Shown: positions 31,184 to 50,820 of the stretch, piece after piece | Layout: each line of letters begins with the position of its first letter | Numbering within the stretch: position 1 is the first letter of the stretch | Made by a program: the position numbers and the translations under genes | DNA from: an uncultured Pelagibacteraceae bacterium | GTDB taxonomy: Bacteria > Pseudomonadota > Alphaproteobacteria > Pelagibacterales > Pelagibacteraceae | Direction of reading: 5' to 3' | Assembly: GCA_902587315.1 (NCBI GenBank) | Contig: CACIKW010000005.1 | Span: 1 to 50,820 of the forward strand | DNA length: 50,820 bases | Notes under the pieces: generated by a model | Databases searched by the model: none | What the model was told of the DNA's origin: nothing | The model's input: only the letters and a program-made list of their open reading frames with translations

Positions 31184-32892
31184 TTAAAAAAAATTTAAAA
31201 AAATTAAAAAAAATAATAAATTTAAATAATATTGATGGTTATATTGTTCCAAAAAATGACGAGTATTTTTCTGAATTTTCTTTTCCTAATAGATTAAAAA
31301 CTATTTCTAATTTTAGTGGATCGGCCGGTTTCGCTCTAATTTTAAAAAAAAAAAATTACCTTTTTGTCGACGGAAGATATACATTGCAGGCAAAAATACA
31401 AAGTGGAAATAATTTTCAAATACTAGAAATACCAAAAATTTGGCCAAAAAAAATATTATATAAATTTAAAAAAAAACTAAACATAGGATTTGATCCAAAA
31501 CTTTTTACAAACTTAACTTTATATCGGTATTTTGATAATACATGTAAATTAACACCTTTAAAGCAAAATTTAATTGATTTAATTTTTCAAGAAAAAAAAC
31601 AAAAAAAAATAAATTTTTTTATAAATTTGAACAAGAAAATCACTGGAGAAAAAATTGATTCAAAAATCAACAGATTGCTAAATTCCTTAAAAAAACAAAA
31701 TATTGAGAATATTTTTATAAGTGCTCCTGAAAATGTTGCGTGGTTATTCAACCTGCGTGGAAAAGACAATCCAAATAGTCCAATACCAAATTGCAAAGTT
31801 ATTTTGACCAAAGAAAAAAAAATATACTTCTTTTCATGCCCTCTAAAAATAAAAAAAATAAGAAAAATTATTCCATACAAAAAATTTATTTTTTGTAAAT
31901 ATGATGATTTTTTAAGCGTAATTTGTGACTTAAATGGAAAAAATTTCTGTATAGATGGCTCGTCATGTTCAATCTTGAATGAATATTTAATAAGATCAAA
32001 ATTTCATATAAAAAGCTTTATAGATCCTTGCTACAATATGAAATCAATAAAAAACAAGACGGAAATTAATAATATGAAAATATCTCATATTTATGACGGA
32101 GTTGCTTTAACTAAGTTTTTGTTTTGGATAAAGAATAATAAATTAAAAGGGCTGGATGAACTTTCAGCAGAAAAAAAATTGGAAAGCATTAGAAAAAAAA
32201 ATAAAAATTATTTATATCCTAGCTTTAATACTATAGCTGGATCGGGACCTAATAGTGCGATAATTCATTATAGAGCCGACATAAAAACTAACAGAAAAAT
32301 TAAAAAAAATGATTTGTTTTTATGTGACTCGGGCGGTCAGTACAAATACGGAACAACAGATGTAACAAGAACTATTGCTTTCAATAAACAGTCAAAAAAA
32401 GTTAAAGATATTTTTACTAGAGTTTTAAAGGGTCATATAGCAGTGGCAACCACAAATTTAAATAAAATTAGTAAAGGCAATATGATTGATAAAAGAGCTA
32501 GGCATTGGTTAAAAAAAATTAATTTAGATTATGGTCATGGAACCGGTCATGGAGTTGGTTTTTTTTTAAATGTTCATGAAGGTCCTCAAGCTATATCAAA
32601 ATACAATAATGTAAAATTAAAAAAAGGCATGATTCTTAGTAATGAGCCTGGTTACTATAAAGAAGGTAAGTTTGGAATTAGAATCGAAAATTTAGTCTAT
32701 GTGGAAAAATCAAAAAATAAACTTTATTTTAAAAATTTAACTTTTGCACCAATTGACAGTGATTTAATAAATTATCATCTTCTTGATGATAAAGAAAAAA
32801 AATATTTGTCAGATTACCATTTACAAACATATTTTAAAATTTCTAAATATTTAAATAAAAAGGAAAAAGTTTGGCTAAAAAACTTAATCTAG
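31180..32892 (+). CDS. pepP: Aminopeptidase P family (Xaa-Pro aminopeptidase, M24B)
   Basis: A 570-residue cytosolic metallopeptidase that removes N-terminal residues before proline. It has two creatinase-type N-terminal domains (starting NLNNIDGYIVPKNDEY) and a pita-bread C-terminal domain. The dinuclear metal ligands are seen in DSGGQYKYGTTDVTRT (two Asp), GHGTGHGVG (His), NEPGYY (Glu) and GIRIENLV (Glu). The three-domain length matches eukaryote-like APP1 and alphaproteobacterial homologues rather than E. coli PepP (441). A 12-A run lies at 31344-31355 in frame. It overlaps uvrD by 4 bp and convergent ligA by 9 bp. Confidence 0.93.
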   Translation: MIKKNLKKLKKIINLNNIDGYIVPKNDEYFSEFSFPNRLKTISNFSGSAGFALILKKKNYLFVDGRYTLQAKIQSGNNFQILEIPKIWPKKILYKFKKKLNIGFDPKLFTNLTLYRYFDNTCKLTPLKQNLIDLIFQEKKQKKINFFINLNKKITGEKIDSKINRLLNSLKKQNIENIFISAPENVAWLFNLRGKDNPNSPIPNCKVILTKEKKIYFFSCPLKIKKIRKIIPYKKFIFCKYDDFLSVICDLNGKNFCIDGSSCSILNEYLIRSKFHIKSFIDPCYNMKSIKNKTEINNMKISHIYDGVALTKFLFWIKNNKLKGLDELSAEKKLESIRKKNKNYLYPSFNTIAGSGPNSAIIHYRADIKTNRKIKKNDLFLCDSGGQYKYGTTDVTRTIAFNKQSKKVKDIFTRVLKGHIAVATTNLNKISKGNMIDKRARHWLKKINLDYGHGTGHGVGFFLNVHEGPQAISKYNNVKLKKGMILSNEPGYYKEGKFGIRIENLVYVEKSKNKLYFKNLTFAPIDSDLINYHLLDDKEKKYLSDYHLQTYFKISKYLNKKEKVWLKNLI

Positions 32893-34902
32893 CATTTTTT
32901 TCCATTCTTTTTGGCTAATTATATTAATATTAAGTTCTTTTGCTAAATTAACTTTTTTATTTGTGGGTTTTTCACCTATTATTAGATGGTCAAGTTTATT
33001 GCTTATTGTACTTAATATTTTTCCAGAATTTTTTTCTATTATTGATTTTGCTTCGGCTCTACTCATGCCATTAAGCTTTCCTGTAAACATAAATGTTTTA
33101 TCTTTAAATTTTCCACTAAATTTTGTATCTGATTCAATTATACCAATATAATTTTTTAGTTCTTTTATTACATTTAAATTAGTTGTATTAGAAAAAAACT
33201 TTTCAAGAGACTTGATCTGAGTTTCTCCGATTCCGTCTGTATTTAAAAAAGAATTAAAATCGTATTCAGAGGATATATTAGTTAAATTATCAAAATTTCC
33301 TATATGTTGAGAAATTAATTTTGCATTTTTTTCTCCAATATGTCTTATGCCTAAGGAGAAGATTAATTTATCCAATGTTAATTTCGTTGATTTGTTTATC
33401 GCATGTTTTAAATTAGAAACAGATAGTTTCCCCCATCCTTCTAATTTTTCAATTTTATTATAATCTAATTTAAATAAATCTTGTGGCAATCTTATCAGTT
33501 TTAAATCCCAAAATTTTTCAACAACTTTTTTTCCAAATCCATCAATATTTAACGCATCCTTGGAAATAAAATGTTTTATTTTTTCTATTGCAATTTTTTC
33601 ACACTCATACCCTTCGGTTGGACATCTTTTTACAGCATCATATTTTTTTGTTTGAAAATTATATTCTTTTATAACTTTAGATTTACAAGATGGACATATT
33701 TTAGGGAAAATAAATTTTCTAGACCCTTTTTTTCTTTTTTTTAAATCAACAGATATGACATGTGGAATAACATCTCCAGCTCTTTCTATTTCCACTGTAT
33801 CCCCAATTCTTATATCTTTTCTATTAATTTCATCTTCATTATGCAAAGTTGCATTCGAAACAACAACTCCTCCAATGTTTACTGGTTTTATTTTTGCAAC
33901 TGGAGTCAGGGCTCCTGTTCTGCCAACTTGAATTTCAATATTCAAAATTTTTGAAATTGAACTTTTTGCAGAAAATTTGTGAGCTACAGCCCATCTTGGA
34001 GCATTAGTTACAAATCCTAATCGTTTTTGTAATTCAATGTCATTTAATTTATATACCAGGCCGTCAACATCATAATCTATTTCAAATCTTTTATTTTCGA
34101 ATTCTTTATGATTTTTAATTAAATCTGGTATGCCAGATATAACTTTATTGAATTTACTTGTTTTAAATCCCCATTTTTTTAAAGAAATTAATAATTCAGA
34201 CTGTTTAGAAATTTTTATATTTTTACAATAGCCAAACGAATAAGCAATAAATCTAAGCGGTATTTTTTTTGTTTCATCTGAATTTTTCTGTCTTAATGTT
34301 CCCGAGGCGGCGTTTCTTGGATTGGCAAAATTTGTTTTTATTTTTTCAAAATCTTTATTTTCAATAAAAACTTCTCCTCTAATATCAATATCATTTGGGA
34401 AATTTTCTGATTTTATAATTTTTGGAATGTCATTAATCGTTTTTAGATTTTCAGTAATTAACTCGCCTTCGGTACCATCTCCTCTTGATAAACCAGATAT
34501 TAAATTACCATTTTTGTAAGTTAATGATGCAGATATACCATCTATTTTTGGTTCGACGCTATATTCTAATATTGTTTTTTTTTTAATATTTAAATAATTA
34601 AATATTTTTTTCTCAAAATTATCTAAATCATCTTTGTTAAATGCATTAGATAAAGATAACATTCTTTCTCTATGTTTTGCCTTAGAGAAACTTTTTGAAG
34701 GTCTAAATCCAACTATGCTGGATGGAGATAAATTTGCCCTTAAATAACTATATTTTTTTTCTAATTCAATTATATCATTCTTCAATTTATCATATTCACC
34801 ATCAGATATTAAAGGTTTGCTTTCTTGATAGTAATGTAAATTATGTTTATTTAATTCTTTTATTTTAATTAGATATTTTTTTTTAATTTCAAGTTTTTCC
34901 AT
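32884..34902 (-). CDS. ligA: NAD-dependent DNA ligase
   Basis: LigA seals nicks in replication and repair using NAD. The 672-residue protein is complete: an Ia domain at the N-terminus (HYYQESKPLISDGEYD), the adenylation motif EPKIDG with Lys119, an OB fold, the cysteine zinc module (CPSC ... CPTEGYEC, about 405-435), helix-hairpin-helix repeats, and a BRCT domain over about the last 75 residues (FMFTGKLNGMSRAEA). It lies 2 bp after bamD, where alphaproteobacteria such as Caulobacter have recN between the two. It ends by overlapping convergent pepP by 9 bp. Confidence 0.97.
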   Translation of the reverse strand: MEKLEIKKKYLIKIKELNKHNLHYYQESKPLISDGEYDKLKNDIIELEKKYSYLRANLSPSSIVGFRPSKSFSKAKHRERMLSLSNAFNKDDLDNFEKKIFNYLNIKKKTILEYSVEPKIDGISASLTYKNGNLISGLSRGDGTEGELITENLKTINDIPKIIKSENFPNDIDIRGEVFIENKDFEKIKTNFANPRNAASGTLRQKNSDETKKIPLRFIAYSFGYCKNIKISKQSELLISLKKWGFKTSKFNKVISGIPDLIKNHKEFENKRFEIDYDVDGLVYKLNDIELQKRLGFVTNAPRWAVAHKFSAKSSISKILNIEIQVGRTGALTPVAKIKPVNIGGVVVSNATLHNEDEINRKDIRIGDTVEIERAGDVIPHVISVDLKKRKKGSRKFIFPKICPSCKSKVIKEYNFQTKKYDAVKRCPTEGYECEKIAIEKIKHFISKDALNIDGFGKKVVEKFWDLKLIRLPQDLFKLDYNKIEKLEGWGKLSVSNLKHAINKSTKLTLDKLIFSLGIRHIGEKNAKLISQHIGNFDNLTNISSEYDFNSFLNTDGIGETQIKSLEKFFSNTTNLNVIKELKNYIGIIESDTKFSGKFKDKTFMFTGKLNGMSRAEAKSIIEKNSGKILSTISNKLDHLIIGEKPTNKKVNLAKELNINIISQKEWKKMLD

Positions 34903-34904
34903 AA

Positions 34905-35738
34905 TCAGAACAACGACTTAAACTTTTCTATCAAGTTTTTTTTGTTCTTTTTAATTTTCAACATTGGATCTGAATAATTTTTATTATATATTTTATAAGT
35001 TTCTTTATACCATCGATCTGATAGGTAATTGTATCCCAAAACACTTGCATATTTTTTTGACTCGTCAATTATTCCTAATCTATAGTACACTTCTACCAAT
35101 CTATGTAATGCCTCCGGTGTGTAAACGGTCGTATCATAATATTTTACAACTTTTTTAAACCTATTTATTGCAGCAACCCATTTTTCTTTACCGAGATAAT
35201 ATCTTCCAATATACATTTCTTTTGCAGCCAATATATTATTAATTAATTCTAGTTTGTACTTTGCGTCCATAGCAAAATCTGTATCGGGGTAATTTTCTAT
35301 AATAAAATTAAATTCTTTTTTTGATTTTACTAAAGGTTCTAAATCTTTTTTTTCATCTACAACAGATTCAAAATAACAAATTGCTCTTAAAAAATGTGCA
35401 TAAGATAAGTTTTTGTGTTTGGGATATTTAAGTATGAATCTATCTAATTCTTCAATTGCTGAAGTTAAAAAGTTTAATTCATAATAAGCGTATGCAGACA
35501 TAAGTATAGCTTTTGATGCCCAAATTGATTGGGGATAAATAGCTTCGGCTTCATTAAATTTTTTTGCTGCATATAAATTGTCTCCCTCTTCTAAGCTTTT
35601 TATACCTTCTTTGTAAATTTCAACCATTTGTTTTTCTAGATCTTTTTCTACAATCTCTTTTTTCAATTCTTTGCTGGATGTACACTGAGATAGTATTAAT
35701 ATAAATATAAAACAAAAAACCCTAGAAAAATTTGACAT
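34905..35738 (-). CDS. bamD: Outer membrane assembly lipoprotein BamD (ComL)
   Basis: BamD is the essential lipoprotein partner of BamA that helps insert beta-barrel proteins in the outer membrane. The 277-residue protein has a lipoprotein signal with a lipobox ending LSQC (Cys about residue 19), then five TPR-like repeats (SLEEGDNLYAAKKFNEAEAIYPQS, AYAYYELNFLTSAIEELDRF, and others) and the HYYL/RYYL-type helix (GRYYLGKEKWVAAINRF). Position between lpxC and ligA is the alphaproteobacterial comL slot. A 52-bp spacer separates it from lpxC, and it is 2 bp from ligA. Confidence 0.94.
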   Translation of the reverse strand: MSNFSRVFCFIFILILSQCTSSKELKKEIVEKDLEKQMVEIYKEGIKSLEEGDNLYAAKKFNEAEAIYPQSIWASKAILMSAYAYYELNFLTSAIEELDRFILKYPKHKNLSYAHFLRAICYFESVVDEKKDLEPLVKSKKEFNFIIENYPDTDFAMDAKYKLELINNILAAKEMYIGRYYLGKEKWVAAINRFKKVVKYYDTTVYTPEALHRLVEVYYRLGIIDESKKYASVLGYNYLSDRWYKETYKIYNKNYSDPMLKIKKNKKNLIEKFKSLF

Positions 35739-35790: not shown

Positions 35791-36711
35791 TTAGGCTATA
35801 GATTTAAGAAATTGAGTTTTAATAAGTTCATTTGGAACCTTATTATCTTTTATCTCAATTAATGAATAGTTTTCTTTGTTTGAAAATACTTTTCTTAATA
35901 GCTGATTTGTTAATTTGTGACCACCTTGTACACTTTTAATTTTTCCTATTATTTTATAACCTGTTAAAAATAAATCTCCCAAACAATCTAATATTTTATG
36001 ATTTACAAATTCTTTTTTGTTTCTTAATCCGCCATCGTTTAAAACTTTATTTCCTTTTACCACAATTGCATTATCTAAACTTCCTCCTTGCGCAAGATTC
36101 ATCTTTTTCAGTTTTTCCACATCTTCAAATAAACAGAATGTTCTTGAATTTATAATTTCGCTTAAATCATCTTCGTAAACATTAATTTTGTTTCTCTGTT
36201 TGTTAATTAAAGGATTATTAAAATTAATTTCAAAATCTAATTCTAAATTAATTTTACTGGGTAAAATTGACATTTTTTTAGAACCATCTTTTATTTCCAC
36301 TAATTTATTTATTTTTATAATTTTAATTGGTGCATTGGTTTCTTTTATTCCTGCTTTTTCAATTTTTTTTATAAATTCTATAGAAGAGCCGTCTAGTATA
36401 GGAACCTCATCTCCATTAATTTCTATAATTGCGTTATCTATTCCTTTAATAAACAAAGCCGCCATAAGATGTTCTATTGTTGATACCTTTACACCATATT
36501 CATTACTCACAGTGGTGCAGAAATTTGCTTCGGAAACATTAAACATGCTTGGAACAATTATATTATTTTTGTCTATATCTGTTCTTTTCAGGGTTATACC
36601 AGCATTCGGTGTAGAAGGCAGAACATTCACATTCGAAACTTTCCCGTTATGCAGACCCACGCCTTTAAATGAAAATGGGTTATTTAATGTTTTTTGGCTT
36701 AAGATCGACAT
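35791..36711 (-). CDS. lpxC: UDP-3-O-acyl-N-acetylglucosamine deacetylase
   Basis: LpxC catalyses the committed step of lipid A synthesis. The 306-residue zinc enzyme has TLNNPFSFKGVGLHNGK at the N-terminus, the VSTIEHLMAALF segment (zinc His, about 77-86), EVPILDGSS, a VNHKILDCLGDLFLTG block (zinc His and Asp, about 235-250) and a GGHKLTNQLL motif with the catalytic His. It follows ftsA with only a 65-bp gap, where ftsZ is normally found. Presence of LpxC shows that the cell makes LPS. FtsH, also in this window, controls LpxC turnover in E. coli. Confidence 0.97.
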   Translation of the reverse strand: MSILSQKTLNNPFSFKGVGLHNGKVSNVNVLPSTPNAGITLKRTDIDKNNIIVPSMFNVSEANFCTTVSNEYGVKVSTIEHLMAALFIKGIDNAIIEINGDEVPILDGSSIEFIKKIEKAGIKETNAPIKIIKINKLVEIKDGSKKMSILPSKINLELDFEINFNNPLINKQRNKINVYEDDLSEIINSRTFCLFEDVEKLKKMNLAQGGSLDNAIVVKGNKVLNDGGLRNKKEFVNHKILDCLGDLFLTGYKIIGKIKSVQGGHKLTNQLLRKVFSNKENYSLIEIKDNKVPNELIKTQFLKSIA

Positions 36712-36776
36712 AATGAATTTATAAGGATTGCGTATAAGAAATAAAAAACAAGAAATGTTACAATAAAATACGATTT

Positions 36777-37961
36777 TTATTTAAATAAATTGAACATTTT
36801 TTCAAAAAAACCATATTTATCTGATTTTTTTGGAACTAAACTTATTTCATTAGGATTCTTCATTTGAATAAATTTATAACCAGAATCACAAACAAGAGTT
36901 GTATTTTCTTCAAAAAAATTTATTTCATCAAAATAATCAAATTTTTCATTAAGTGTTATTGAATTTTTATTTAATATTTTTGATCCTTCTCCAATAAAAA
37001 TTAAAATAGATTTTTTATCGTTTTTAAAAAAATACGAATAATCAAAATCTTTAAATATTAAATCAAATATTTCATCAATTCTTGCAAAAATAACTTTCAT
37101 CAGTAAGTTAATTTGTATATTTTTTTCTGACAATTCTTTTAATAAATTAATGTCATTAATATTATAATTTTCATCTATTTTATTGGAAAAAGTTATGCCT
37201 AAATTACTAAGTTTTTTTTTTATTTTTTCGGCTTCTATAATTGAAATCTTAAATACTTTCGAGATATCTTTTGTTATATGGTTTCCTCCAAGATCTAAAT
37301 ATTTAATAAATTTAAAATTATTTTTTTTATAAATTGTCAAAGAACTTTTATCATATCCAATATCTAAAAAAAATTTCTTATCATAATTTTCAAAAAAATC
37401 TTTAAAATAATATGATTTTATATAGCTTGTACAAAAAATTTTCTTTATGGTAAGAAATTGTTTTTTAAATGTATTTGTTAATTTATCAAAAAAAATGTTA
37501 GTTAAACAAATAAATTTAGCTTCAATAATAAATTCATCACAATTTAAATCATTTTCAGGAAAATAATCAAATTCTTTTTTATCAATAATTATTTTTGTAA
37601 TAATGAAATGTACAATTTTATAATTTGAATAATTTTGTTTAATTAATGAATTTATAGTGTTTAATAAATGTTTAATATCTTTTGATTTAACTAGCCTGTT
37701 ATCAAAATTTTTTTTTAGTCCTATATCAATACAAAAAAATTCCGATGTATCAATCATAACATTTATATTGTTTAAGTGAGTATTTATTTTTCTTTCAAGG
37801 ATTTTAATTATTTTATTAATTTTATCACTATAATTTTCTAAATTATTTATTCTTTCTTCATTTAAAAAAAATTTGTTTTTTTTATAATCATTATCGAATG
37901 TTCCTATTCTTAATTTTGATGCTCCATAATCTAAAATTGTTTCAAATTTTTCCTTACTCAT
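36777..37961 (-). CDS. ftsA: Cell division protein FtsA, highly divergent
   Basis: FtsA is the actin-like protein that tethers FtsZ to the membrane. The 394-residue protein keeps the overall plan: phosphate-1 segment LDYGASKLRIG (10-20), phosphate-2 DIGYDKSSL (200-208) followed by LDLGGNHITKDIS (222-234), a GEGSKI adenosine-type motif (324-329), and a C-terminal amphipathic helix (about 381-394, FFEKMFNLFK). The motifs are weakened: the usual DIGGGTTD has become DIGYDKSS. The call relies on these motifs, the membrane helix and the position after ftsQ (8-bp overlap). ftsZ does not follow. Confidence 0.82.
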   Translation of the reverse strand: MSKEKFETILDYGASKLRIGTFDNDYKKNKFFLNEERINNLENYSDKINKIIKILERKINTHLNNINVMIDTSEFFCIDIGLKKNFDNRLVKSKDIKHLLNTINSLIKQNYSNYKIVHFIITKIIIDKKEFDYFPENDLNCDEFIIEAKFICLTNIFFDKLTNTFKKQFLTIKKIFCTSYIKSYYFKDFFENYDKKFFLDIGYDKSSLTIYKKNNFKFIKYLDLGGNHITKDISKVFKISIIEAEKIKKKLSNLGITFSNKIDENYNINDINLLKELSEKNIQINLLMKVIFARIDEIFDLIFKDFDYSYFFKNDKKSILIFIGEGSKILNKNSITLNEKFDYFDEINFFEENTTLVCDSGYKFIQMKNPNEISLVPKKSDKYGFFEKMFNLFK

Positions 37962-38652
37962 TTGAAAAAATTATCTGATTTGGCACTCTTAGATCAATTA
38001 CTTTATTATCTTTGCTAATATTTTCTTTTATAATTTTGCTAAGTAAATCTATGGAGTTGCTAATATTTTCATTGGGAAGTTTAGCGATAACCTCATTATT
38101 CAATTTAACATCCCATCTTTTACTTGGAAAATAATAATATTCCTTAATTTCTTCTATATCAAAATTTGATTTTTCAATAAAATTCATTAAATTAAAAAAT
38201 TCATCAATTGGAAAGTTCCCAAAAATTATTGGATAATTTCTTTCTAATTTTTTTCCATTAAAGTCTATAAATTTTTTATTTGAACCTATGTATATTTTTT
38301 TATTATTTTTGTAAGTTGCTGCTAATATTTTTGTCCTATATAGATCCACTTTCACTTTTGATGGAAAAAATTTTGATACTTTGTAATTTTCAATATAGTT
38401 AATATTGTTTAATATTTTTTTTATTTGATTTTGACTGATATAAAATATATTTTTACCAATCAAATAATCAAATTTTTTTTTAATTTTTTGATTTAAATCA
38501 TTATCTAAACCAGTGACTTCGACTTTCTTAATTTTTAAGATAGAGTCTAATTTATTGTTCCACGAAATGTTATTTATTGTTGATAAAAAAATAAATATAA
38601 AAATATAAAAGAAAATATTATATTTTCTACCTATTGATTGAGGCATCATCAA
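37954..38652 (-). CDS. ftsQ: Cell division protein FtsQ
   Basis: FtsQ is a bitopic divisome protein that with FtsL and FtsB regulates septal synthesis. The 232-residue protein has a short basic cytosolic end, one membrane helix (about residues 11-28), a POTRA domain (ILKIKKVEVTGLDND..., about 39-110) and a beta domain with the FPSKRWDVKLNNEV stretch. Three tandem Met codons open the ORF, so the start is uncertain by 2 residues. It overlaps ddl by 26 bp and ftsA by 8 bp. Sequence is diverged, but order ddl-ftsQ-ftsA supports the call. Confidence 0.88.
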   Translation of the reverse strand: MMMPQSIGRKYNIFFYIFIFIFLSTINNISWNNKLDSILKIKKVEVTGLDNDLNQKIKKKFDYLIGKNIFYISQNQIKKILNNINYIENYKVSKFFPSKVKVDLYRTKILAATYKNNKKIYIGSNKKFIDFNGKKLERNYPIIFGNFPIDEFFNLMNFIEKSNFDIEEIKEYYYFPSKRWDVKLNNEVIAKLPNENISNSIDLLSKIIKENISKDNKVIDLRVPNQIIFSNE

Positions 38653-39550
38653 TAATCCATTCTATTAAATCTATGAAATTTATTTTTTTATATTTTGCTA
38701 TTTCTGGAACCAGTGATAGAGAAGTCATACCTGGTTGAGTGTTTAATTCTAAGAGATAAAATTTATTATTATAAAATCTAAAATCAGACCTTGTAACCCC
38801 TCTGCATCCCAAAACTTTATGTGCCTTTAAAGCTATACTCATAATTTTTTTATAATTTCTATCACTTAAATTTACCGGAATTATGTGTTTCGTATTAGCT
38901 TTTGGATTATATTTTGCTTCATAATCATAAAATTTTCTCTTGGGTATTAATTCGATTGCTCCTAGTTTATTATTTCCCATAATCGCGGCCTGAATTTCTC
39001 TACCTGGAATATATTTTTCAATTAATATTTCTCTATAATTAACAAGTCTTTTCATTTTTTTTAGTATATTTGATGAATTACAAATAAAAACATTAACACT
39101 GGATCCTTCATTTAAAGGCTTAATTACGACGGGAAAACCAATTTTTTTTTTCAAATGTTTTAAAAAAAAAAATTTATTAAATTTTTTTTTAAAATTAAAT
39201 TTAATATATCTTGGTGTTAAAATGTTGTTTTTAATAAAAATCTTCTTTGAAATTTCTTTGTCTATTGCATAAAACGAGGAAAGAACACCCGAGTGAGTGT
39301 ATTTTACTTTTTCATTTTCCAATATAGATTGGATATATCCATCTTCTCCATATCGGCCATGAAGAGCATTGAATACAACATCGGGTTTAAATTTTCTAAT
39401 TTTTTTTATTAAGTCTCCATCTGGTTCGGTAACTCTTGTTTTGTATTTTCCACTTTCGTTTAATGATTTTTGAACACTTTTTGAAGTTATAAGACTAATA
39501 TCTCTTTCTTTTGAAAATCCACCTGCGAGAATTAATATCTTTTTTTTCAT
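38627..39550 (-). CDS. ddl: D-alanine--D-alanine ligase
   Basis: Ddl makes the D-Ala-D-Ala dipeptide that MurF adds to the peptidoglycan precursor. The 307-residue ATP-grasp enzyme has ILAGGFSKERDISLIT (about 5-20), NALHGRYGEDGYIQ (about 61-74), IKPLNEGSSVNV (about 141-152), EKYIPGREIQAA and the C-terminal ELNTQPGMTSLSLVP. It abuts murB and overlaps ftsQ by 26 bp. Long A or T runs (10-11 bases near 39142-39172) encode lysine stretches; the frame is intact. Confidence 0.96.
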   Translation of the reverse strand: MKKKILILAGGFSKERDISLITSKSVQKSLNESGKYKTRVTEPDGDLIKKIRKFKPDVVFNALHGRYGEDGYIQSILENEKVKYTHSGVLSSFYAIDKEISKKIFIKNNILTPRYIKFNFKKKFNKFFFLKHLKKKIGFPVVIKPLNEGSSVNVFICNSSNILKKMKRLVNYREILIEKYIPGREIQAAIMGNNKLGAIELIPKRKFYDYEAKYNPKANTKHIIPVNLSDRNYKKIMSIALKAHKVLGCRGVTRSDFRFYNNKFYLLELNTQPGMTSLSLVPEIAKYKKINFIDLIEWIIDDASINR

Positions 39551-40459
39551 TTATTCTACCAATATAATTTCTAAACTAAGTCTTATCCCGGTAGTATCAA
39601 ATACCTTCTTCTGGACAAAGTTTATAAGTTTTTTCATATCACTACATGAAGCCTTATCTTTGTTTATAAAAAAATTACAATGTTTTTCAGAAATTATTGC
39701 ATCTCCAAATCGTGTATCTAATGGAACAGATGATTTTATAAGCTCCCAAACTTTTTTATTTGTTTGATCAATTGGATTTTTAAAAGTACTTCCGCCAGTC
39801 TTTATTTTTGTTGGCTGAGTTTTATCTTTTTTTGATTTTAAAAGTATCATTTCTTTTTCAATTTTTTTTTTATCTTCTTTTTTTCCTTTTAATGATGCGC
39901 TTAAAAAAATTAAATTATTATTTAAATCACATTTTCTATAACTAAAATTAATTTTATCTCTAGAAACTGTAATAACATTACCAGAAGTATCCACTGCTTG
40001 TACTGACAGAATAATGTCTTTAAATTCTCTATTAAAGCAACCTGAATTCATTCTGATTCCTCCTCCAACTGTTCCAGGAATGCAGCTCAAGAATTCAAAA
40101 CCACTCAAACTATTTTCGCTTGCAAATTTAGAAAGCGTTTTATCTTGTGCCCCACTTCCAGCTATGATTATTTCTTTATTTAAAATCGATAGATTGGAAA
40201 AATTCTTACCTAATTTAATTACTACTCCATCAAAAATATCATCTTTAAATAAGATGTTTGATCCTGCTCCTAAAACAAATATTTTTCCTCTATTATTAAA
40301 TAACTTTAAAAAATCAACTAGTTCGTTTAATTTTTCTGGCTTAAAAAAAACCTTTGTTTTCCCGCCTATATTAAACCAATTAGATTTGTTTAGATTATAA
40401 TCAAATAATACTTTCCCTGATGCGTTATTAGAAAAGTTCTCTAAATCTTTTAAATTCAT
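39551..40459 (-). CDS. murB: UDP-N-acetylenolpyruvoylglucosamine reductase
   Basis: MurB reduces the enolpyruvyl group to lactyl, giving UDP-MurNAc, with FAD and NADPH. I choose the ATG at 40457-40459 (302 residues) because it shares a base with the murC stop (TAATG), a coupling seen elsewhere here; an upstream ATG at 40489 would overlap murC by 31 bp. Motifs: WFNIGGKTKVFF (FAD fold), LGAGSNILF, SCIPGTVGGGIRMNSGCF, a GGSTFKNP segment with the catalytic Ser, and SEKHCNFFIN near the C-terminus. It abuts ddl. Confidence 0.95.
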   Translation of the reverse strand: MNLKDLENFSNNASGKVLFDYNLNKSNWFNIGGKTKVFFKPEKLNELVDFLKLFNNRGKIFVLGAGSNILFKDDIFDGVVIKLGKNFSNLSILNKEIIIAGSGAQDKTLSKFASENSLSGFEFLSCIPGTVGGGIRMNSGCFNREFKDIILSVQAVDTSGNVITVSRDKINFSYRKCDLNNNLIFLSASLKGKKEDKKKIEKEMILLKSKKDKTQPTKIKTGGSTFKNPIDQTNKKVWELIKSSVPLDTRFGDAIISEKHCNFFINKDKASCSDMKKLINFVQKKVFDTTGIRLSLEIILVE

Positions 40460-41853
40460 TATAAAAATTTTTTTAAATTTCTCATCCAATTAGAGATCGA
40501 TCCTGCGCCCATGCCTATTACTATTTTTTTTCCATAAATATTTTGTTTGGTGTACTTTGCTAGTTGATGTTGATCTTTTACAAATATTAGTCTTACCTTG
40601 GATTTGTTCATTAAATCGTTTGCAAATTTTGAATATGAGAATCCAAGGGAAATATTTTCTCCAGCTTTATAAATTGGACATAGTATGACTGTGTCGGCTT
40701 TTTTGAATACCATTGTAAATTCTTTTTTTAAATTCTTTATTCTAGAAATTCTATGAGGTTGAAATACACATATAATTTCCCAATTTTTGTATACTTCCTT
40801 TACTCCATTTAAAACTTCTTTTATTTCAGTTGGGTGATGAGCATAATCGTCAAAGAATATTGCTTTTCGAAATTTAAATAACTGATTAAATCTTCTTTGC
40901 ACTCCCTGAAAATTGTATAGGCCTTTTTTAATAATTTTTTCTGATATTCCTATACTGCTCGCTACAGCTAAAGCTGCGGTAGCATTTTTAATATTATGAA
41001 TTCCTATAATTGGGATTTTTATATTTTTAATTATTTTAGTTTTTTTTCCTTGTAAATTTATTTTTAAATCAAAAGCAGAAAACTTAATTTGTTGTCTGAT
41101 ATTAATTATCCTATAATTAGAATTTTTATCAATACCATAAGTATAAAAATTATTATTACTTAAATTTTTTATAATGCTTTTAATATTTTTGTCATCAATA
41201 CATACAAATGATTTTCCAAATGATGGTGTGTTATCTACGAATGAAATAAATTTATTTTTTAGATTATTTATACTTTTATAATAATCCATATGCTCCAAAT
41301 CTATATTCGTAACAATTGAGTATGTAGGTGGAACTTGTAAAAAACTACCATCAGATTCATCGGATTCTAAAATACACCAATTGCTTTTTCCTAGTTTAGC
41401 AGAACTTCCAAATGAATTTAAAACACCACCATTTATTATAGTTGGGTCAAGTTTTGCTTGTGAAAAAATACTAGATACTAATGACGTTGTAGTAGTTTTT
41501 CCATGTGAACCTGCAACTACAACATTTTTCATTAAGGAAACTATATGCCCAAGTACTTCTCCCCTTTTGTAAATTGGAATTTTTCTTCTTTTTGCCTCCT
41601 TGTATTCTGAATTATTTTTTTTTATTGCAGAAGAAATAACTAAAATTGTAGAATTTTTAATATTTTTTTTTTTTTGGCCTATAAAAATCTTAATTTTTTT
41701 TTTTTTTAGACGTTCAATGTTTTTATTTTCTACTATGTCACTTCCTTGAATTCTAAACCCCAAACTTTTCATTATTTGAGCTAAACCGCTCATTCCAATT
41801 CCACCAATTCCTACGAAATGGATAATTTCTTCTTTGGCTAATTTAATATTCAT
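40459..41853 (-). CDS. murC: UDP-N-acetylmuramate--L-alanine ligase
   Basis: MurC adds L-Ala to UDP-MurNAc. The 464-residue Mur ligase starts with IHFVGIGGIGMSGLAQIM (about 11-28), has the ATP loop GSHGKTTTTS (about 114-123), an ESDESDGSF motif, NIDLEHMDYY, the HNIKNATAALA segment and DDYAHHPTEI (about 332-341). It overlaps murG by 11 bp and murB by 1 bp. The lysine stretch near residues 49-64 is encoded by 13- and 14-base A runs (plus-strand T at 41663-41675 and 41694-41707), the longest homopolymers I noticed; the frame is intact. Confidence 0.97.
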   Translation of the reverse strand: MNIKLAKEEIIHFVGIGGIGMSGLAQIMKSLGFRIQGSDIVENKNIERLKKKKIKIFIGQKKKNIKNSTILVISSAIKKNNSEYKEAKRRKIPIYKRGEVLGHIVSLMKNVVVAGSHGKTTTTSLVSSIFSQAKLDPTIINGGVLNSFGSSAKLGKSNWCILESDESDGSFLQVPPTYSIVTNIDLEHMDYYKSINNLKNKFISFVDNTPSFGKSFVCIDDKNIKSIIKNLSNNNFYTYGIDKNSNYRIINIRQQIKFSAFDLKINLQGKKTKIIKNIKIPIIGIHNIKNATAALAVASSIGISEKIIKKGLYNFQGVQRRFNQLFKFRKAIFFDDYAHHPTEIKEVLNGVKEVYKNWEIICVFQPHRISRIKNLKKEFTMVFKKADTVILCPIYKAGENISLGFSYSKFANDLMNKSKVRLIFVKDQHQLAKYTKQNIYGKKIVIGMGAGSISNWMRNLKKFL

Positions 41854-42916
41854 TTATCGTATTAATCAATTTTTGATTTATTGTATTCCAATTATTCTGT
41901 GAGCTAATTTTTTCAATATTTTTTTTCTTTTTAAAGTATTCATTTCTATCATTAATTATACTTAATAATAGATCTAAAATTTTATTTGTATGAACTTTAT
42001 TTTGTTCCAATAACCAGCAGCAATTTAAATCTGAAAAATACTTTGCATTGTAGTATTGATGGTTATCCTTTGCATGCGGAAAAGGTATTGCAATAAAGGG
42101 AATATTAAAATACGCAAGATCAGATAAGGCTGAGGCTCCACATCTTGTTATTGCAAGATCTATATCCTGCATTTTTTCATATAATTTTTTATCAAAAAGA
42201 AATAATTCATAATTTATTTTTAATGAATCATAAGTTTTCATAATTTCAACTTTATCTTTTTCATTAGATACTTGTTGTAATATTTTTATATTATTATTTT
42301 TTGAAAATTTATTGATTACTTCTTTAATTTTATTGTCAAAAAAAGATGCTCCCTGGCTTCCTCCAATTATAAGAATTCTAAATATAGATGATGTTTTATT
42401 AAAATTTCTTTTAGCTTCGTAAATTTCTTTTCTTAATAAACGTTCAATAGTAACAATTTTATGTTTATATTTTGCAGGGAAATTGACTATATTCTCAAAA
42501 TAACAAAAAACTTTTTTAGAAAATCTAGTCATCAATCTATTTGATCTGCCTATAACCATATTTGGCTCAAATAAAAATAAATTTATATTCAATATTTTTG
42601 CGGCAATACAAAAAGGTAATGACATATACCCTCCTGTACTAATTAAATGATGTATTTTGTTTCTTTTTAAAAAAACTAAAGCTTTAAAGAATGAAATAAA
42701 AAATGATATTATAAAGAAAGGTGCAAAAATTATATTTTTTGAAATTCTAGGTGAATCAATGACTTTATATTTGTAGAGTTTATTATCTATAAATTTTGAT
42801 CCTCTGTAATCTGATACAATTTGAACATCATAATTAGAATTTAGATGATCATAAAATATAATTGCAGGAATAACATGTCCGCCAGATCCACCCGTTGAAA
42901 TCAATATTTTTTTCAC
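41843..42916 (-). CDS. murG: UDP-GlcNAc:lipid I N-acetylglucosaminyltransferase
   Basis: MurG adds GlcNAc to lipid I to form lipid II on the inner face of the membrane. The 357-residue GT-B enzyme has ISTGGSGGHVIPAI at the N-terminus (G-loop, about 6-19), a hydrophobic patch around 61-82, STGGYMSLPF, LIIGGSQGASFFD (second G-loop, about 182-194) and ITRCGASALSDLAYFNIPFIAIPFP with the UDP-binding residues, then the KDNHQYYNA motif. It lies 4 bp after ftsW and overlaps murC by 11 bp. Confidence 0.96.
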   Translation of the reverse strand: MKKILISTGGSGGHVIPAIIFYDHLNSNYDVQIVSDYRGSKFIDNKLYKYKVIDSPRISKNIIFAPFFIISFFISFFKALVFLKRNKIHHLISTGGYMSLPFCIAAKILNINLFLFEPNMVIGRSNRLMTRFSKKVFCYFENIVNFPAKYKHKIVTIERLLRKEIYEAKRNFNKTSSIFRILIIGGSQGASFFDNKIKEVINKFSKNNNIKILQQVSNEKDKVEIMKTYDSLKINYELFLFDKKLYEKMQDIDLAITRCGASALSDLAYFNIPFIAIPFPHAKDNHQYYNAKYFSDLNCCWLLEQNKVHTNKILDLLLSIINDRNEYFKKKKNIEKISSQNNWNTINQKLINTINEY

Positions 42917-42920
42917 AATT

Positions 42921-44039
42921 TTAAACTTTTCTTCTCGTTAAATTTAATATTATTCCTGATAAAATAGCATTACTTATTATTGATGAGCCACCATAGCTTA
43001 AAAATGGTAGCGTCATTCCTGTGGTTGGAAGAATTCTAATATTAACTCCTATGTGTACAAATGTTTGTAATATTAATATAGAAATCAATCCCATAAGAAT
43101 AAGTCTAGTTTTATTATCTTTTTCCAAAGAAATTTTCTTTATTACTTGAAAAGCAAAAAAAATGAAAACTAATATTATTGCAATAACAATAATAATTCCA
43201 AACTCTTCGGATATCACGGATACTATATAATCATTATGGGCTTCGGGAATTCTATTATTAAGAGTGCCTTCGCCAACCCCTTTGCCGAAAAATCCTCCTC
43301 CAATAATTGCTTCTGAGGCCTTTTCTGATTGATAGTTGTTTCCACTGGATGGGTCTAGAAAGGAGAATATCCTTGTTTTTATATACTCAAATTTAGGAAT
43401 AAAAAAAATCAAATAGGAAGTAGATCCAATTAAAATAAAAAAAAAGGAAAAAAAAATAAATAAATTAATTCCTGAAATAAATATTAAAATTAACCATGTT
43501 AGCAAAACTAAAATTGACTGTCCAAGGTCAGGCTGTATTAATAATAATAACACTGTGGGAGATATAACTAATAAACTTAAAAAATAATTTAAATACTTAT
43601 TTTTATTTGTTCCAAGATTTAATACTAAAGCAATTATAACTATAAGAAAAGGTTTTAATAACTCTATTGGTTGAAGCCTGGGTAGAAAAAAAATGTCAAT
43701 CCATCTTTTTGAACCTTTTACTTCAACTCCTATAAAAGGTACTAAAACTAACAATAAAAAGAAAATTAAAAATAAAATTCTTGATAAATTATAAAGTTGG
43801 TTTTGATTGAAAATAGAAAAACTAAAAAGAAAAGAAAGTCCAATTATAACAAAAATAAAATGTTTTATGAAAAAGTAATAACTATTTGTTTGTAATTTGT
43901 CTGATGCAATTAGAGACGTCGAAACCAATGAAAAAAATAAACCTAAGAAAAAAAGACTTAATACAATAAGCAAAATAGATTTATCAATGTTTTTCCACCA
44001 GCCATAAAAATAATTAAAATGGTCTTCTCTATTTTGCAT
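42921..44039 (-). CDS. ftsW: Septal peptidoglycan glycosyltransferase FtsW (SEDS family)
   Basis: FtsW polymerises lipid II at the septum with its partner FtsI. The 372-residue protein has about ten membrane helices and the SEDS signatures: VEVKGSKRWIDIFFLPRLQPIELLK (about 107-131, with the W and Q-P-x-E-L-x-K motif), the large extracellular loop with a conserved Asn-Asp-Tyr (PEAHNDYIVSVISEEFG), and PTTGMTLPFLSYGGSS near the C-terminus. It overlaps murD by 11 bp and precedes murG by 4 bp; ftsI is at the right end of the window. Confidence 0.95.
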   Translation of the reverse strand: MQNREDHFNYFYGWWKNIDKSILLIVLSLFFLGLFFSLVSTSLIASDKLQTNSYYFFIKHFIFVIIGLSFLFSFSIFNQNQLYNLSRILFLIFFLLLVLVPFIGVEVKGSKRWIDIFFLPRLQPIELLKPFLIVIIALVLNLGTNKNKYLNYFLSLLVISPTVLLLLIQPDLGQSILVLLTWLILIFISGINLFIFFSFFFILIGSTSYLIFFIPKFEYIKTRIFSFLDPSSGNNYQSEKASEAIIGGGFFGKGVGEGTLNNRIPEAHNDYIVSVISEEFGIIIVIAIILVFIFFAFQVIKKISLEKDNKTRLILMGLISILILQTFVHIGVNIRILPTTGMTLPFLSYGGSSIISNAILSGIILNLTRRKV

Positions 44040-45354
44040 TTATACTTTTAATGAATTTTAATTTTTTTATTAAATAATTAAAATACATTCCTCTTTCTTC
44101 AAAATTTTTAAAAGAATCAAATGAAGCTGCTGAAGGGCTAAACAATACTTCTCTTTTCTTTTCATTATGTTTATCAGATCGAATATCTTTAATAATTTCT
44201 TTTAAAGATTCTTTTATGTTTGCAAATACTTTATATTTTAGTTTATTATTTAATTGTCTAACAAAATAATTTTTGTTTTTACCATAAATGTAAACTTTTA
44301 AAAATTTAAAATATTTTTTATTTAAATTGAAGTTGTCACCTTTTTTATACAATCCACCAACAATCCAATAAATATTATTATTAGATTTTAGGAGATTAAC
44401 ACTCGATGAAAAACTAGTTGATTTTGAATCGTTAATAATTAATAAATTTTTATTTTTGTAAATTATCTGTTGTCTAAATTTCAAACCATGAAATGAATTT
44501 AAAGATTCAATAATTTTTTTTTTTTTAAGTCCAAGTTTTTTTGATATTTCAAAAATAAAAGATAGATTTTGTAAATTGTTAATATTTTTAAAGTATGGAT
44601 TTAGAATATTACTTTTTATATTTTCAATATTTCTGAAATCCACTAAAATTATTTTTGATTTTAATTTTGTATTTTTCGATATTCTTTTTAAATAGATATT
44701 ATTTTTGGCAATATATGCATATCCATTATCTTTCTGGTTTTTTACTAATTTAAATTTAGCATTGACATAATTTTTCATTGTTTGATGTCTTTCTAGATGA
44801 TCGGGGCTAATATTTAAAATCATTGAATAATCAGTTTTATAGTACTTACTATATTCAATCTGGTATGATGATGCTTCTATGACAAAAATTGTTTTAGAAT
44901 TTTTTGCATTTTGATCAAGAACAGGTTTGCCTATATTTCCAATTAATTTTACATTTTTTTTATGTTTTTTTATAATTGTATATAAAAGTTTTGAAGTTGT
45001 GGATTTTCCATTTGTTCCTGTTATTGTTATTTTTGTATTATTAATATTCTGAAAGTAAAATAAATCTAAATCAGTAATTATTTTGTTTTTGTTTTTTAAA
45101 AGAAAAAATTTTAGTTTACATTTGTTAATATCTATGCCTGGACTAATAACTATGTATTCATAAAAATCTTTTTTAATATTGTTAATTTTTATAAAATAAT
45201 TATTTTTAATATTCTTGGGTATGATTTTGTGATTATCGTCATAAATCTTAATCTGGTTATTTTTTTTTAAAAAATTAAAACATGATTTGCCTGTCTTGCC
45301 AAATCCATAAATTAATATTTTTTTACTCTTTAACTTGTCCTTAAAATTAAGCAT
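44029..45354 (-). CDS. murD: UDP-N-acetylmuramoyl-L-alanine--D-glutamate ligase
   Basis: MurD adds D-Glu to UDP-MurNAc-L-Ala. The 441-residue Mur ligase has a short N-terminal Rossmann domain (KILIYGFGKTGKSCF), the ATP loop ITGTNGKSTTSKL (about 111-123), IEASSYQIEY (about 159-168), NISPDHLERH (about 179-188), a NDSKSTSF segment (about 310-317) and WIVGGLYKKGD. It is Lys/Asn-rich and diverged. It shares one base with mraY and overlaps ftsW by 11 bp. Confidence 0.94.
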   Translation of the reverse strand: MLNFKDKLKSKKILIYGFGKTGKSCFNFLKKNNQIKIYDDNHKIIPKNIKNNYFIKINNIKKDFYEYIVISPGIDINKCKLKFFLLKNKNKIITDLDLFYFQNINNTKITITGTNGKSTTSKLLYTIIKKHKKNVKLIGNIGKPVLDQNAKNSKTIFVIEASSYQIEYSKYYKTDYSMILNISPDHLERHQTMKNYVNAKFKLVKNQKDNGYAYIAKNNIYLKRISKNTKLKSKIILVDFRNIENIKSNILNPYFKNINNLQNLSFIFEISKKLGLKKKKIIESLNSFHGLKFRQQIIYKNKNLLIINDSKSTSFSSSVNLLKSNNNIYWIVGGLYKKGDNFNLNKKYFKFLKVYIYGKNKNYFVRQLNNKLKYKVFANIKESLKEIIKDIRSDKHNEKKREVLFSPSAASFDSFKNFEERGMYFNYLIKKLKFIKSINAK

Positions 45355-46439
45355 TATCTCAATTTAAGTGTGGCCAAACCTATCATGGCAAGTATGATTG
45401 AGATAATCCAAAACCTTATAACGACTGTTGACTCGGGCCATCCTTTTTTTTCAAAATGATGGTGTATGGGCGCCATCATAAAAATTCTTTTGCCAGTTAA
45501 CTTAAATGAAACTACCTGTACTATCACGGATATTGCCTCAAGCACAAATAATCCTCCGGTGATTGCAAGAACTATTTCATGCTTGGTAACAATGCTTACT
45601 GCACCCAAAGATCCTCCTAGAGATAAAGACCCCGTGTCTCCCATAAAAATTTTTGCAGGTGGTGCGTTAAACCATAAAAAGCCTAAGCACGCGCCGATTA
45701 TGGATCCACAGAAAACTGCAACTTCACCAACTCCTTCAATATATGGTATGTGTAGATAATCTGAAAAAACTATATTTCCAGTTACGTAACTAATAAATGC
45801 AAAACAGGATGCAACAAGTATTACCGGCACAGTCGCTAGTCCGTCTAATCCGTCAGTTAAATTAACAGCATTTGAAGAGCCTACAATTACAAACATGTAA
45901 AAAGGAATATAAAATAAACCTAAATTTAATACCAAGTTCTTAAAAAATGGAAAATATAAATTATTTATTTCTGGTGACTCTGAATAAAAAGTTAAAAACA
46001 TAATTGCAATAAAAGATAATACTAATTGGATTAATAATTTTATTTTTGATGATATTCCAATTGAGTTATTATTTTTAATTTTTTTATAATCATCAAATGC
46101 ACCCAAAACACCAAATGATCCAACAACAAAAATTAAAAACCAAATATACGGATTTGATAAGTCGCCCCATAATAATATGCCTGAAAATAAACCTGTAAGA
46201 ATCAATAATCCGCCCATTGTTGGTGTTCCTATTTTTTTTATTATATGTTCTGATGGACCATCGTTTCTAATTGGATCATGAATTTTATTAGATGTAAAAA
46301 AATTTATAAAAGGTGTCCCGATAAGAAATACTACAAACAATGAAGTGAACATAGCTAGTCCAGTTCTCACAGTTAAATATTTAAAAATATTAAGAAAAGA
46401 ATAATTTTCAACTAAATTTGTTAATAGGCTATAAAGCAT
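45354..46439 (-). CDS. mraY: Phospho-N-acetylmuramoyl-pentapeptide transferase
   Basis: MraY moves phospho-MurNAc-pentapeptide from UDP to undecaprenyl phosphate, forming lipid I. The 361-residue integral membrane protein has about ten helices. Motifs: GTPTMGGLLI (about 71-80), the GAFDDYKKI segment with the catalytic Asp pair (about 113-121), NAVNLTDGLDGLA (about 190-202), FMGDTGSLSLGG (about 264-275) and MMAPIHHHFEKKGWPE (about 321-336). It overlaps the murE-murF fusion by 11 bp and murD by 1 bp. Confidence 0.97.
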   Translation of the reverse strand: MLYSLLTNLVENYSFLNIFKYLTVRTGLAMFTSLFVVFLIGTPFINFFTSNKIHDPIRNDGPSEHIIKKIGTPTMGGLLILTGLFSGILLWGDLSNPYIWFLIFVVGSFGVLGAFDDYKKIKNNNSIGISSKIKLLIQLVLSFIAIMFLTFYSESPEINNLYFPFFKNLVLNLGLFYIPFYMFVIVGSSNAVNLTDGLDGLATVPVILVASCFAFISYVTGNIVFSDYLHIPYIEGVGEVAVFCGSIIGACLGFLWFNAPPAKIFMGDTGSLSLGGSLGAVSIVTKHEIVLAITGGLFVLEAISVIVQVVSFKLTGKRIFMMAPIHHHFEKKGWPESTVVIRFWIISIILAMIGLATLKLR

Positions 46440-49290: not shown

Positions 49291-50820
49291 CTAGTATTTT
49301 GTGGCTAAAATTGGTCCAATTTTTTCAATTATTTTCCCTGCTATTTCTACAGTTGTCCATCCGGCGGTATTAAAAGGTGTTCCCTTATATGATCCTTTTT
49401 TATTTCTATAGTTATAAACATAATCTTTAGAAATTTTAGGCTCATCGAGCAATGTAAGCAAAACGAACTTCGGTTTTGATGCAGGAAAAATTGCAACAAA
49501 TGTATTTATTTTATTTTTTGAATATTTTCCTTGAAATGATTTTTGAGCTGTTCCAGTTTTTCCACCAACTTCATATCCTAATACATTTGCTAGTCCAGCG
49601 GTTCCTTCTTCGGATGAAACTATTTTCCTTAAAGCAATATTTACCTTTTTTGAAACATCTTTTTTTAATAACTTTTCTTTTTTGATATTTTTATTTGAAT
49701 TATTTTTTATTAAAGTTGGGTTAATTTTAAAACCTCCATTTGAAATAATTGAATAGCCTTTGGCTAGTTGCAAAAGAGTTGTGGTTATACCATGTCCATA
49801 AGAAACTGTTGCTAATTTACATTTGCCCCATTTAAATTTTATAGGTGTTCCTACCTCTTCAATGTCAAAATTTATTTTGTTTAAAATACCAATTTTTTCT
49901 AAAAAAAATTTTAACTTTTCTATTCCTATTTTTTGTCCAATTCTAATCGATCCAATATTTCCTGATCTTATTAATATTTGCTCTGCAGTTAAGTTTGGTG
50001 GAATTTTATTGTCATACTCTCCTATGATGTTTTTTCCACATCTAATACTTTTTTCTAAATCTTTAAACTTTGTTTCAGGTTCAATCACTTCTTCATTTAG
50101 ACCGGCTGCGAAAGTAAATGTCTTAAAAACTGATCCAAGCTCATATACACCCTTGGTAGCTCTATTTATATAGTTCAAATCTTTAATTTTTTTTCTTTGA
50201 TTCAAATCAAAATCAGGTAAAGAAATCATTGATATTACTTCCCCGTTATTTACATTCATTAAAATTGCTGCGCTTCCAATGTTTCGAAAAATTTCCTGTG
50301 CATTAACAAGTTCATTTCTAATTAAATATTGTAGATCAGTATCAACACTTAATTGTATTGGATTTTTTGAAGAACGAAGCTCATAATCAAAATATTTTTC
50401 AATACCAGATATGCCATTATTTGCATCATCAATTTGACCAACAATATGACTATAAAGTTCTCCGTGCGGGTAAATTCTAGAAATTTTTTCTTCGGTTCTT
50501 ATTGATTTATCACCAAGTAACATAATTTTTTCTAGTTTTTTCTGGCTTATTTGTTTTTCTACATAAAAAAATTTTTCTCCGTACATTTTTTTATTAAAAA
50601 TTTTGTTAGGAAAAATTAATTTCAAATTTATCAATAATTTTTTTTTGTCTATTACAAGTTTTGGATCTATTCCTACATTAATCGTATTAACAGTTTTTGC
50701 TACAATATTTCCATTTCTGTCAAGAATAGTAGAACGATAATTTTTTTTTGAAATTGATGCTTTTTTAATATTTTCTTTTTTAAATCCAAAATAAGATGCT
50801 TTTATTGAAAAAATAATTCC
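49291..50820 (-). CDS. ftsI: Septal peptidoglycan transpeptidase FtsI (PBP3), 5' end outside window
   Basis: FtsI crosslinks septal peptidoglycan with FtsW. The frame is open to the right edge, so the N-terminal membrane anchor is missing. The visible part begins in the dimerisation domain (RSTILDRNGNIVAKTV at about 50700-50750). It continues with PHGELYSHIVGQIDDANNGISGIE and the transpeptidase domain with SVFK (active-site Ser), SGN (SxN motif) and GGKTGTAQ (KTG motif). It ends at TAG 49291-49293. The next gene is the murE-murF fusion. mraZ, mraW and ftsL, if present, would lie to the right. Confidence 0.95.
   Translation of the reverse strand, partial: GIIFSIKASYFGFKKENIKKASISKKNYRSTILDRNGNIVAKTVNTINVGIDPKLVIDKKKLLINLKLIFPNKIFNKKMYGEKFFYVEKQISQKKLEKIMLLGDKSIRTEEKISRIYPHGELYSHIVGQIDDANNGISGIEKYFDYELRSSKNPIQLSVDTDLQYLIRNELVNAQEIFRNIGSAAILMNVNNGEVISMISLPDFDLNQRKKIKDLNYINRATKGVYELGSVFKTFTFAAGLNEEVIEPETKFKDLEKSIRCGKNIIGEYDNKIPPNLTAEQILIRSGNIGSIRIGQKIGIEKLKFFLEKIGILNKINFDIEEVGTPIKFKWGKCKLATVSYGHGITTTLLQLAKGYSIISNGGFKINPTLIKNNSNKNIKKEKLLKKDVSKKVNIALRKIVSSEEGTAGLANVLGYEVGGKTGTAQKSFQGKYSKNKINTFVAIFPASKPKFVLLTLLDEPKISKDYVYNYRNKKGSYKGTPFNTAGWTTVEIAGKIIEKIGPILATKY

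Follow-up and report, generated by a model that had tools for sequence, protein, structure and literature searches.

In the dcw cluster of SAR11 loci, ftsZ follows mraZ and precedes rsmH instead of standing between ftsA and lpxC

The junction between ftsA and lpxC

The stretch of DNA analyzed here (the window, 50,820 nucleotides) corresponds to positions 1-50,820 of contig C5 in a Pelagibacteraceae genome of 859 kb, which consists of 38 contigs and is 73.9% complete. It carries a dcw cluster on the minus strand and, apart from it, a gene for the FtsZ partner ZapA. The relevant features are as follows.

16560-17006, minus strand: zapA, FtsZ partner (PF05164, E=1.5e-19)
34905-35738, minus strand: bamD/yfiO-like lipoprotein gene, next after lpxC (PF13525, E=1.9e-56)
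35791-36711, minus strand: lpxC, 306 aa (PF03331, E=2e-93)
36712-36776, no strand: ftsA-lpxC intergenic gap, 65 bp, the site of ftsZ in most of the other Alphaproteobacteria that were classifiable (basis: ORF list, no FtsZ match, short gaps in seven relatives, class survey)
36777-37961, minus strand: ftsA, divergent, 394 aa (PF14450, E=1.6e-14; position after ftsQ)
37954-38652, minus strand: ftsQ (PF08478 and PF03799)
38627-39550, minus strand: ddl (position in the cluster, plus searches combining SAR11 and E. coli queries)
39551-40489, minus strand: murB (named from cluster position; kept in relatives)
40459-41853, minus strand: murC (evidence as for ddl)
41843-42916, minus strand: murG (evidence as for ddl)
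42921-44039, minus strand: ftsW (evidence as for ddl)
44029-45354, minus strand: murD (evidence as for ddl)
45354-46439, minus strand: mraY (evidence as for ddl)
46429-49272, minus strand: murE-murF, one reading frame, 947 aa (single ORF)
49291-50820, minus strand: ftsI, 5' end cut at the end of window and contig (PF00905, E=1.4e-53; 509 aa readable versus 560 aa in the relative G012)

Within the cluster, the Pfam search covered ftsI, ftsQ, ftsA, lpxC and the bamD-like gene. The FtsA match is confined to residues 199-284, which marks this FtsA as divergent; FtsA of G012 aligned with that of the window along part of its length, at 32%. The single murE-murF frame was also seen in G012, whereas the two genes occupy separate frames in G032, G038, G123 and six genomes of f9 (the family code of one further order-level lineage, which belongs to another order than SAR11), and the fusion may therefore be genus-specific.

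An original prediction made from this stretch alone held that ftsZ is missing from its slot between ftsA and lpxC, and the ORF list confirms it, with the two neighbors only 65 bp apart. It had also seen no remnant of a tubulin-like GTPase at the locus; this was borne out, as the genome's own FtsZ had no tblastn match at E<=1e-3 anywhere in the window. The rest of the divisome is present as had been proposed: ftsQ, ftsA and ftsI were recognized by their Pfam domains, ftsW by its position in the cluster together with the SAR11 and E. coli query searches, and the suggested ZapA is real.

In a draft genome of 38 contigs, ftsZ might have been removed at 36712-36776 by a misassembly or a chimeric join. 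However, the same closed junction was seen in seven other assemblies of related genomes, where ftsA and lpxC are separated by a short gap that holds no ftsZ. Two of these are single contigs (G123, 53 nt, and G012, 70 nt, where the ftsA frame is interrupted); the gaps in the others were 7 nt (G032), 64 nt (G162), 65 nt (G047), 62 nt (G190) and 65 nt (G197), all measured to lpxC starts chosen by a script, whereas the 65 bp of the window come from its ORF list. The recurrence of the empty slot argues against a local misassembly, as does the finding, described below, that ftsZ sits where relatives carry it. We consider such an artifact, which had been named as a possible refutation, extremely improbable.

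ftsZ at the head of the same cluster

A search of the whole genome with PF00091 yielded one match, on contig C18, and none on C5. The protein (479 aa, L001:1456-2895) is a full-length FtsZ with both domains (PF00091, E=1.2e-47, residues 16-176; PF12327, FtsZ_C, E=1.5e-33), and its translation contains the GGGTGTG signature in the form given in the original prediction. The gene order on C18 (L031) is amidase-rnpB-mraZ-ftsZ-rsmH, the spacers being 20 nt between mraZ and ftsZ and 18 nt between ftsZ and rsmH. MraZ was identified by PF02381 (E=4.8e-22, two stretches), and RsmH and the amidase were confirmed by Pfam, the latter from a 143-aa piece. The RNase P RNA gene, rnpB (L031:3988-4344), is flanked by the amidase gene and mraZ; it ends 624 nt before ftsZ and is on the same strand. 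This genome departs from the canonical order of ftsA, then ftsZ, then lpxC.

These data bear on a true loss of ftsZ accompanied by an FtsZ-independent mode of division, for which only the empty slot in the window speaks. A full-length FtsZ is encoded in the same genome, and of 41 genomes searched in this order, 34 had FtsZ. Unless C18 is of foreign origin, loss or an unusual division mode is thereby ruled out here, and the gene order of C18 and its identity to SAR11 relatives argue against such an origin. The chance that ftsZ was lost is, in our judgment, negligible.

C18 breaks off within the 3' part of rsmH, the window within the 5' part of ftsI, and from the missing parts we estimate that about 0.5 kb separates the two contigs. 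In the single-contig genome G012 (1.34 Mb), the corresponding genes form one run: amidase, rnpB, mraZ, ftsZ, rsmH, an ftsL-sized ORF, ftsI, murEF, mraY, murD, ftsW, murG, murC, murB, ddl, ftsQ, ftsA and lpxC. It is followed by a bamD-like gene and a relative of the window ORF at 32884-34902. The single-contig G123 has the same run from mraZ-ftsZ-rsmH to ftsA-lpxC, with murG and ftsQ giving no match. Some frames in G012 are broken, namely mraY and murD (L032:11371-12457 and L032:12482-13750) and ftsA across L032/L033, perhaps owing to sequencing indels.

The canonical alphaproteobacterial dcw cluster reads mraZ-rsmH-ftsL-ftsI-murE-murF-mraY-murD-ftsW-murG-murC-murB-ddl-ftsQ-ftsA-ftsZ-lpxC. From rsmH to lpxC, G012 has the same genes in the same order, with an ORF of 102 aa standing where ftsL is expected, and the order rsmH-ftsI-murE-murF-mraY-murD-ftsW-murG-murC-murB-ddl-ftsQ-ftsA-lpxC is likewise kept in the genome under study (with rsmH on C18 and the genes from ftsI to lpxC in the window). 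The differences are that ftsZ in SAR11 is the second gene and does not lie between ftsA and lpxC, and that both genomes of this genus that were inspected have murE and murF joined in one frame. Since the single-contig relatives join C18-type and C5-type ends in one run, we infer the same join for this genome and conclude with high confidence that ftsZ was transposed within the dcw cluster, moving some 15 kb upstream from the ftsA-lpxC slot to the second place, behind mraZ and ahead of rsmH. Relocation, which had been favored as the simplest explanation before the gene was located, was thus the right one.

We then considered how widespread this order is. The named set, the best 80 of 589 places, comprised 52 SAR11 loci (single-cell genomes and MAGs of Pelagibacteraceae/Pelagibacterales) and 28 loci from other Alphaproteobacteria. 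These named relatives place the genome of the window itself in SAR11. Within the set, mraZ preceded ftsZ in 51 of the 52 SAR11 loci, the exception beginning inside ftsZ, and rsmH followed ftsZ in 51 of 52, the exception being cut in ftsZ. Among the 28 other loci, none gave an mraZ match; an lpxC match came directly after ftsZ in 20, and in 8 there was none within the stretch covered. For the order itself, 30 of the 34 FtsZ-bearing genomes yielded loci, and some of these genomes are also in the named set; all 30 had mraZ-ftsZ, and rsmH was present in 26 of them. The median mraZ-ftsZ gap was 13 nt in both SAR11 and f9. Across 82 SAR11 loci (some genomes being included twice), the gap was 40 nt or less in 77 and 171 nt, by the script's choice of start, in 5.

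Six of the seven genomes of the order that gave no FtsZ match are 55-72% complete. The seventh, G027, is 98% complete, and its lack of a Tubulin-family match may reflect an assembly gap or something odder.

It had been stated that relatives whose ftsZ never adjoined ftsA would count as evidence against the finding. Such an arrangement is indeed what the SAR11 relatives read have in common, and the empty slot is therefore lineage-wide and no event of a single strain; the relocation itself stands. In the wider class, 144 genomes were drawn, of which 141 had FtsZ. By cut-offs of our own, and with mraZ positions taken among the best matches listed, ftsZ adjoined mraZ in 4, lpxC lay no more than 4.5 kb after ftsZ in 83, ftsZ lay at cluster length downstream of mraZ without lpxC beside it in 23, and 31 were not classifiable. 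The four genomes with adjacent mraZ and ftsZ were G000 and G123 of SAR11 and G047 and G162 of f9. Thus, most of the class sample retains ftsZ at the 3' end of the cluster, and the SAR11 loci read are a shared exception.

The order to which f9 belongs gave an FtsZ match in 22 of 32 genomes, with mraZ-ftsZ in 21 loci and ftsZ-rsmH in one partial locus. In 20 of the 21 loci, rsmH followed on the same strand. In the remaining f9 genome, G196 (L124:2705-3181), rsmH lies on the opposite strand right after ftsZ and near a contig end, which could be a rearrangement or an assembly error. The mraZ-ftsZ-rsmH arrangement is common to the SAR11 loci read and f9.

A further comparison was made with HIMB59 / AEGEAN-169 (formerly SAR11 subclade V), represented by G065 (a single contig of 1,410,127 bp, the label being tentative). 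Like SAR11, this group has a small AT-rich marine genome, and rnpB adjoins mraZ in G065. Unlike SAR11, G065 keeps lpxC close after ftsZ, and in record coordinates about 865 kb separate ftsZ from mraZ. Provided that G065 is HIMB59, HIMB59 does not share the SAR11 order. Genome reduction was also considered as the sole cause of the move and was rejected: the small genomes G065, G079, G151, G175 and G183 hold ftsZ and lpxC together, and size alone is therefore no explanation.

MraZ-box-like repeats and the predicted control of ftsZ

Direct repeats are found before mraZ. The pair CCCA-N6-CCCA occurred within 200 nt before mraZ in all 80 distinct SAR11 upstreams scored, compared with a rate of 0.0003 in shuffled sequences, and the same upstreams searched with wrong spacings gave 0/80 (N5), 0/80 (N7) and 1/80 (N9). 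A strict CCCA triple with 10-bp spacing was present in 78 of the 80. In f9 upstreams the pair was found in 17 of 21 and the strict triple in 2 of 21, and a looser CCA triple in all 80 SAR11 and all 21 f9 upstreams. Eleven of 21 canonical upstreams were scored (10 Alphaproteobacteria and E. coli), and 7 of these contained the CCCA pair.

In the genome of the window, the strict triple occurs once genome-wide, 20 nt before mraZ. Among 12 genomes scanned in this way it was absent from 7, including G123 of SAR11 and all three f9 genomes; in G148 the sole match, and in G063 one of three, lies away from mraZ. A promoter-like pattern, TTGANN-N15..19-TANNNT, was found upstream of mraZ in 64 of 81 SAR11 and 14 of 21 f9 loci, counted without a shuffled control and with a pattern that is weak in AT-rich DNA. 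Reading by eye revealed a -10-like TATTAT between two of the repeats in the genome of the window.

This genome has two features expected of an MraZ-controlled operon, namely mraZ as the first gene and 10-bp-spaced direct repeats before it. E. coli K-12 likewise has mraZ first and repeats of the same spacing in front of it; however, its ftsZ lies between ftsA and lpxC, and the repeats of E. coli MG1655 are in the opposite orientation. Work on E. coli identifies repeats of this kind as MraZ operators. By motif and position, the repeats before mraZ in SAR11 are then putative MraZ operators as well, and their presence suggests that ftsZ is probably under MraZ control. Together with the short mraZ-ftsZ gap, they point to co-transcription: mraZ and ftsZ would be transcribed from a promoter overlapping the CCCA repeats, and FtsZ output would track MraZ autoregulation and expression from the head of the operon, in place of promoters near ftsQ-ftsA. 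FtsZ itself is predicted to remain an ordinary divisome tubulin that works with FtsA and ZapA. It should be noted that the CCCA pair also precedes mraZ in canonical clusters. The repeats are thus older than the move of ftsZ and are no proof that ftsZ moved because of MraZ.

Origin and significance of the SAR11 gene order

The wider proposal is that one ancient transposition, in an ancestor of SAR11 and f9 that excluded HIMB59, put ftsZ under the MraZ promoter, and that SAR11 FtsZ levels are set by MraZ feedback. We advance it tentatively, as a possibility that falls somewhat short of being probable. Since SAR11 and f9 share the borders of the block, a single origin is plausible; it is also possible that the mraZ-ftsZ-rsmH block was passed sideways, or that the move happened twice. 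That the shared order does not reflect common descent in one of these ways has, in our view, nearly an even chance.

Gene order speaks for common descent. Both borders and the closed ftsA-lpxC slot are the same in SAR11 and f9, and adjacency of mraZ and ftsZ in only 4 of 141 class genomes, all SAR11 or f9 (with 31 not classifiable), makes the move look rare. The five small genomes named above keep ftsZ and lpxC together. In addition, SAR11 and f9 were grouped in all four single-gene trees built without HIMB59-like rows, with support of 0.909-0.994. On the other hand, f9 is assigned to another order, and the pair was recovered in none of eight single-gene trees that included HIMB59-like rows. 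The FtsZ tree, from which rows C_L151, S_G012, F_G047, H_L114 and C_L097 were left out, had no SAR11+f9 group, with the grouping not rejected (p-AU 0.227).

A set of 24 proteins encoded in the region of the ribosomal operon (34 rows; G038, G162 and G210, 3 of 36 genomes, were left out because they had no rpsC match) also leans against the pairing. With recoding, no SAR11+f9 group appeared, and this grouping had a p-AU of 0.114, while both bp-RELL and c-ELW excluded it from the 95% set; FastTree on the same proteins without recoding joined SAR11 with G065 (0.982).

Twelve dcw proteins (42 rows, C_L152, H_G065, C_L151 and C_L111 being left out) gave mixed results. FastTree joined SAR11, f9 and HIMB59-like rows, with the latter nearer SAR11, a placement that composition bias might cause. 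SR4 recoding gave SAR11+f9 a support of 52, and LG+C20 on 20 of the 42 rows recovered no pairing, the branching of SAR11, f9 and HIMB59-like rows having a support of 24. The AU test on the SR4 set accepted SAR11+f9 (p 0.173), SAR11 with HIMB59-like rows (0.341) and f9 with HIMB59-like rows (0.444). The HIMB59-like label of L098 and L114 is tentative, their LpxC being 45-46% identical to that of G065, and G065 and L098 stand apart in the FtsZ tree. Taken together, the trees do not demonstrate that the SAR11 and f9 order arose once, nor do they firmly rule this out.

The question matters because the placement of SAR11 and HIMB59 within Alphaproteobacteria is disputed owing to base composition (PMC3815206, PMC6447387, PMC10308909). 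Gene order is a separate character for this placement. If the proposal of one ancient transposition is true, the position of ftsZ would serve as a rare genomic marker for placing SAR11, one that does not depend on base composition.

The rnpB-mraZ neighborhood has a longer history. Outside SAR11 and f9, rnpB was found shortly before mraZ on the same strand in 9 of 15 genomes, and this neighborhood is therefore older than the move of ftsZ. In agreement with the order on C18, a published table for Candidatus Pelagibacter ubique HTCC1062 has the RNase P RNA between mraZ (SAR11_0033) and ybjR (SAR11_0034); the available part of the main text of that paper has no mention of ftsZ (PMC2704228). The literature search, which had most subscription journals outside its reach, found no description of the ftsZ position in SAR11, and none is given in the parts available of PMC13349992, PMC5089854, PMC8871954, PMC7203096, PMC2877005, PMC2704228, PMC4709009 and PMC5069720.

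The position of ftsZ has consequences for the use of its transcripts. A 2026 study used ftsZ and RNase P transcripts as a growth index in taxa including Pelagibacterales, with RNase P placed on Rfam sequences (PMC13349992). As rnpB and ftsZ are one-strand neighbors in SAR11, ratios of ftsZ to RNase P compare adjacent and possibly coupled genes.

It also touches on how division is controlled. In a 2010 comparison, SAR11 was reported to have no ctrA orthologue, and ftsZ was listed among the CtrA-regulated genes of Caulobacter (PMC2877005). The shared exception in ftsZ position points to a changed setting of FtsZ levels in organisms reported to be without ctrA. The transposed ftsZ is a variant of the known dcw cluster, and it bears on division control, on ocean transcript indices and on SAR11 phylogeny.
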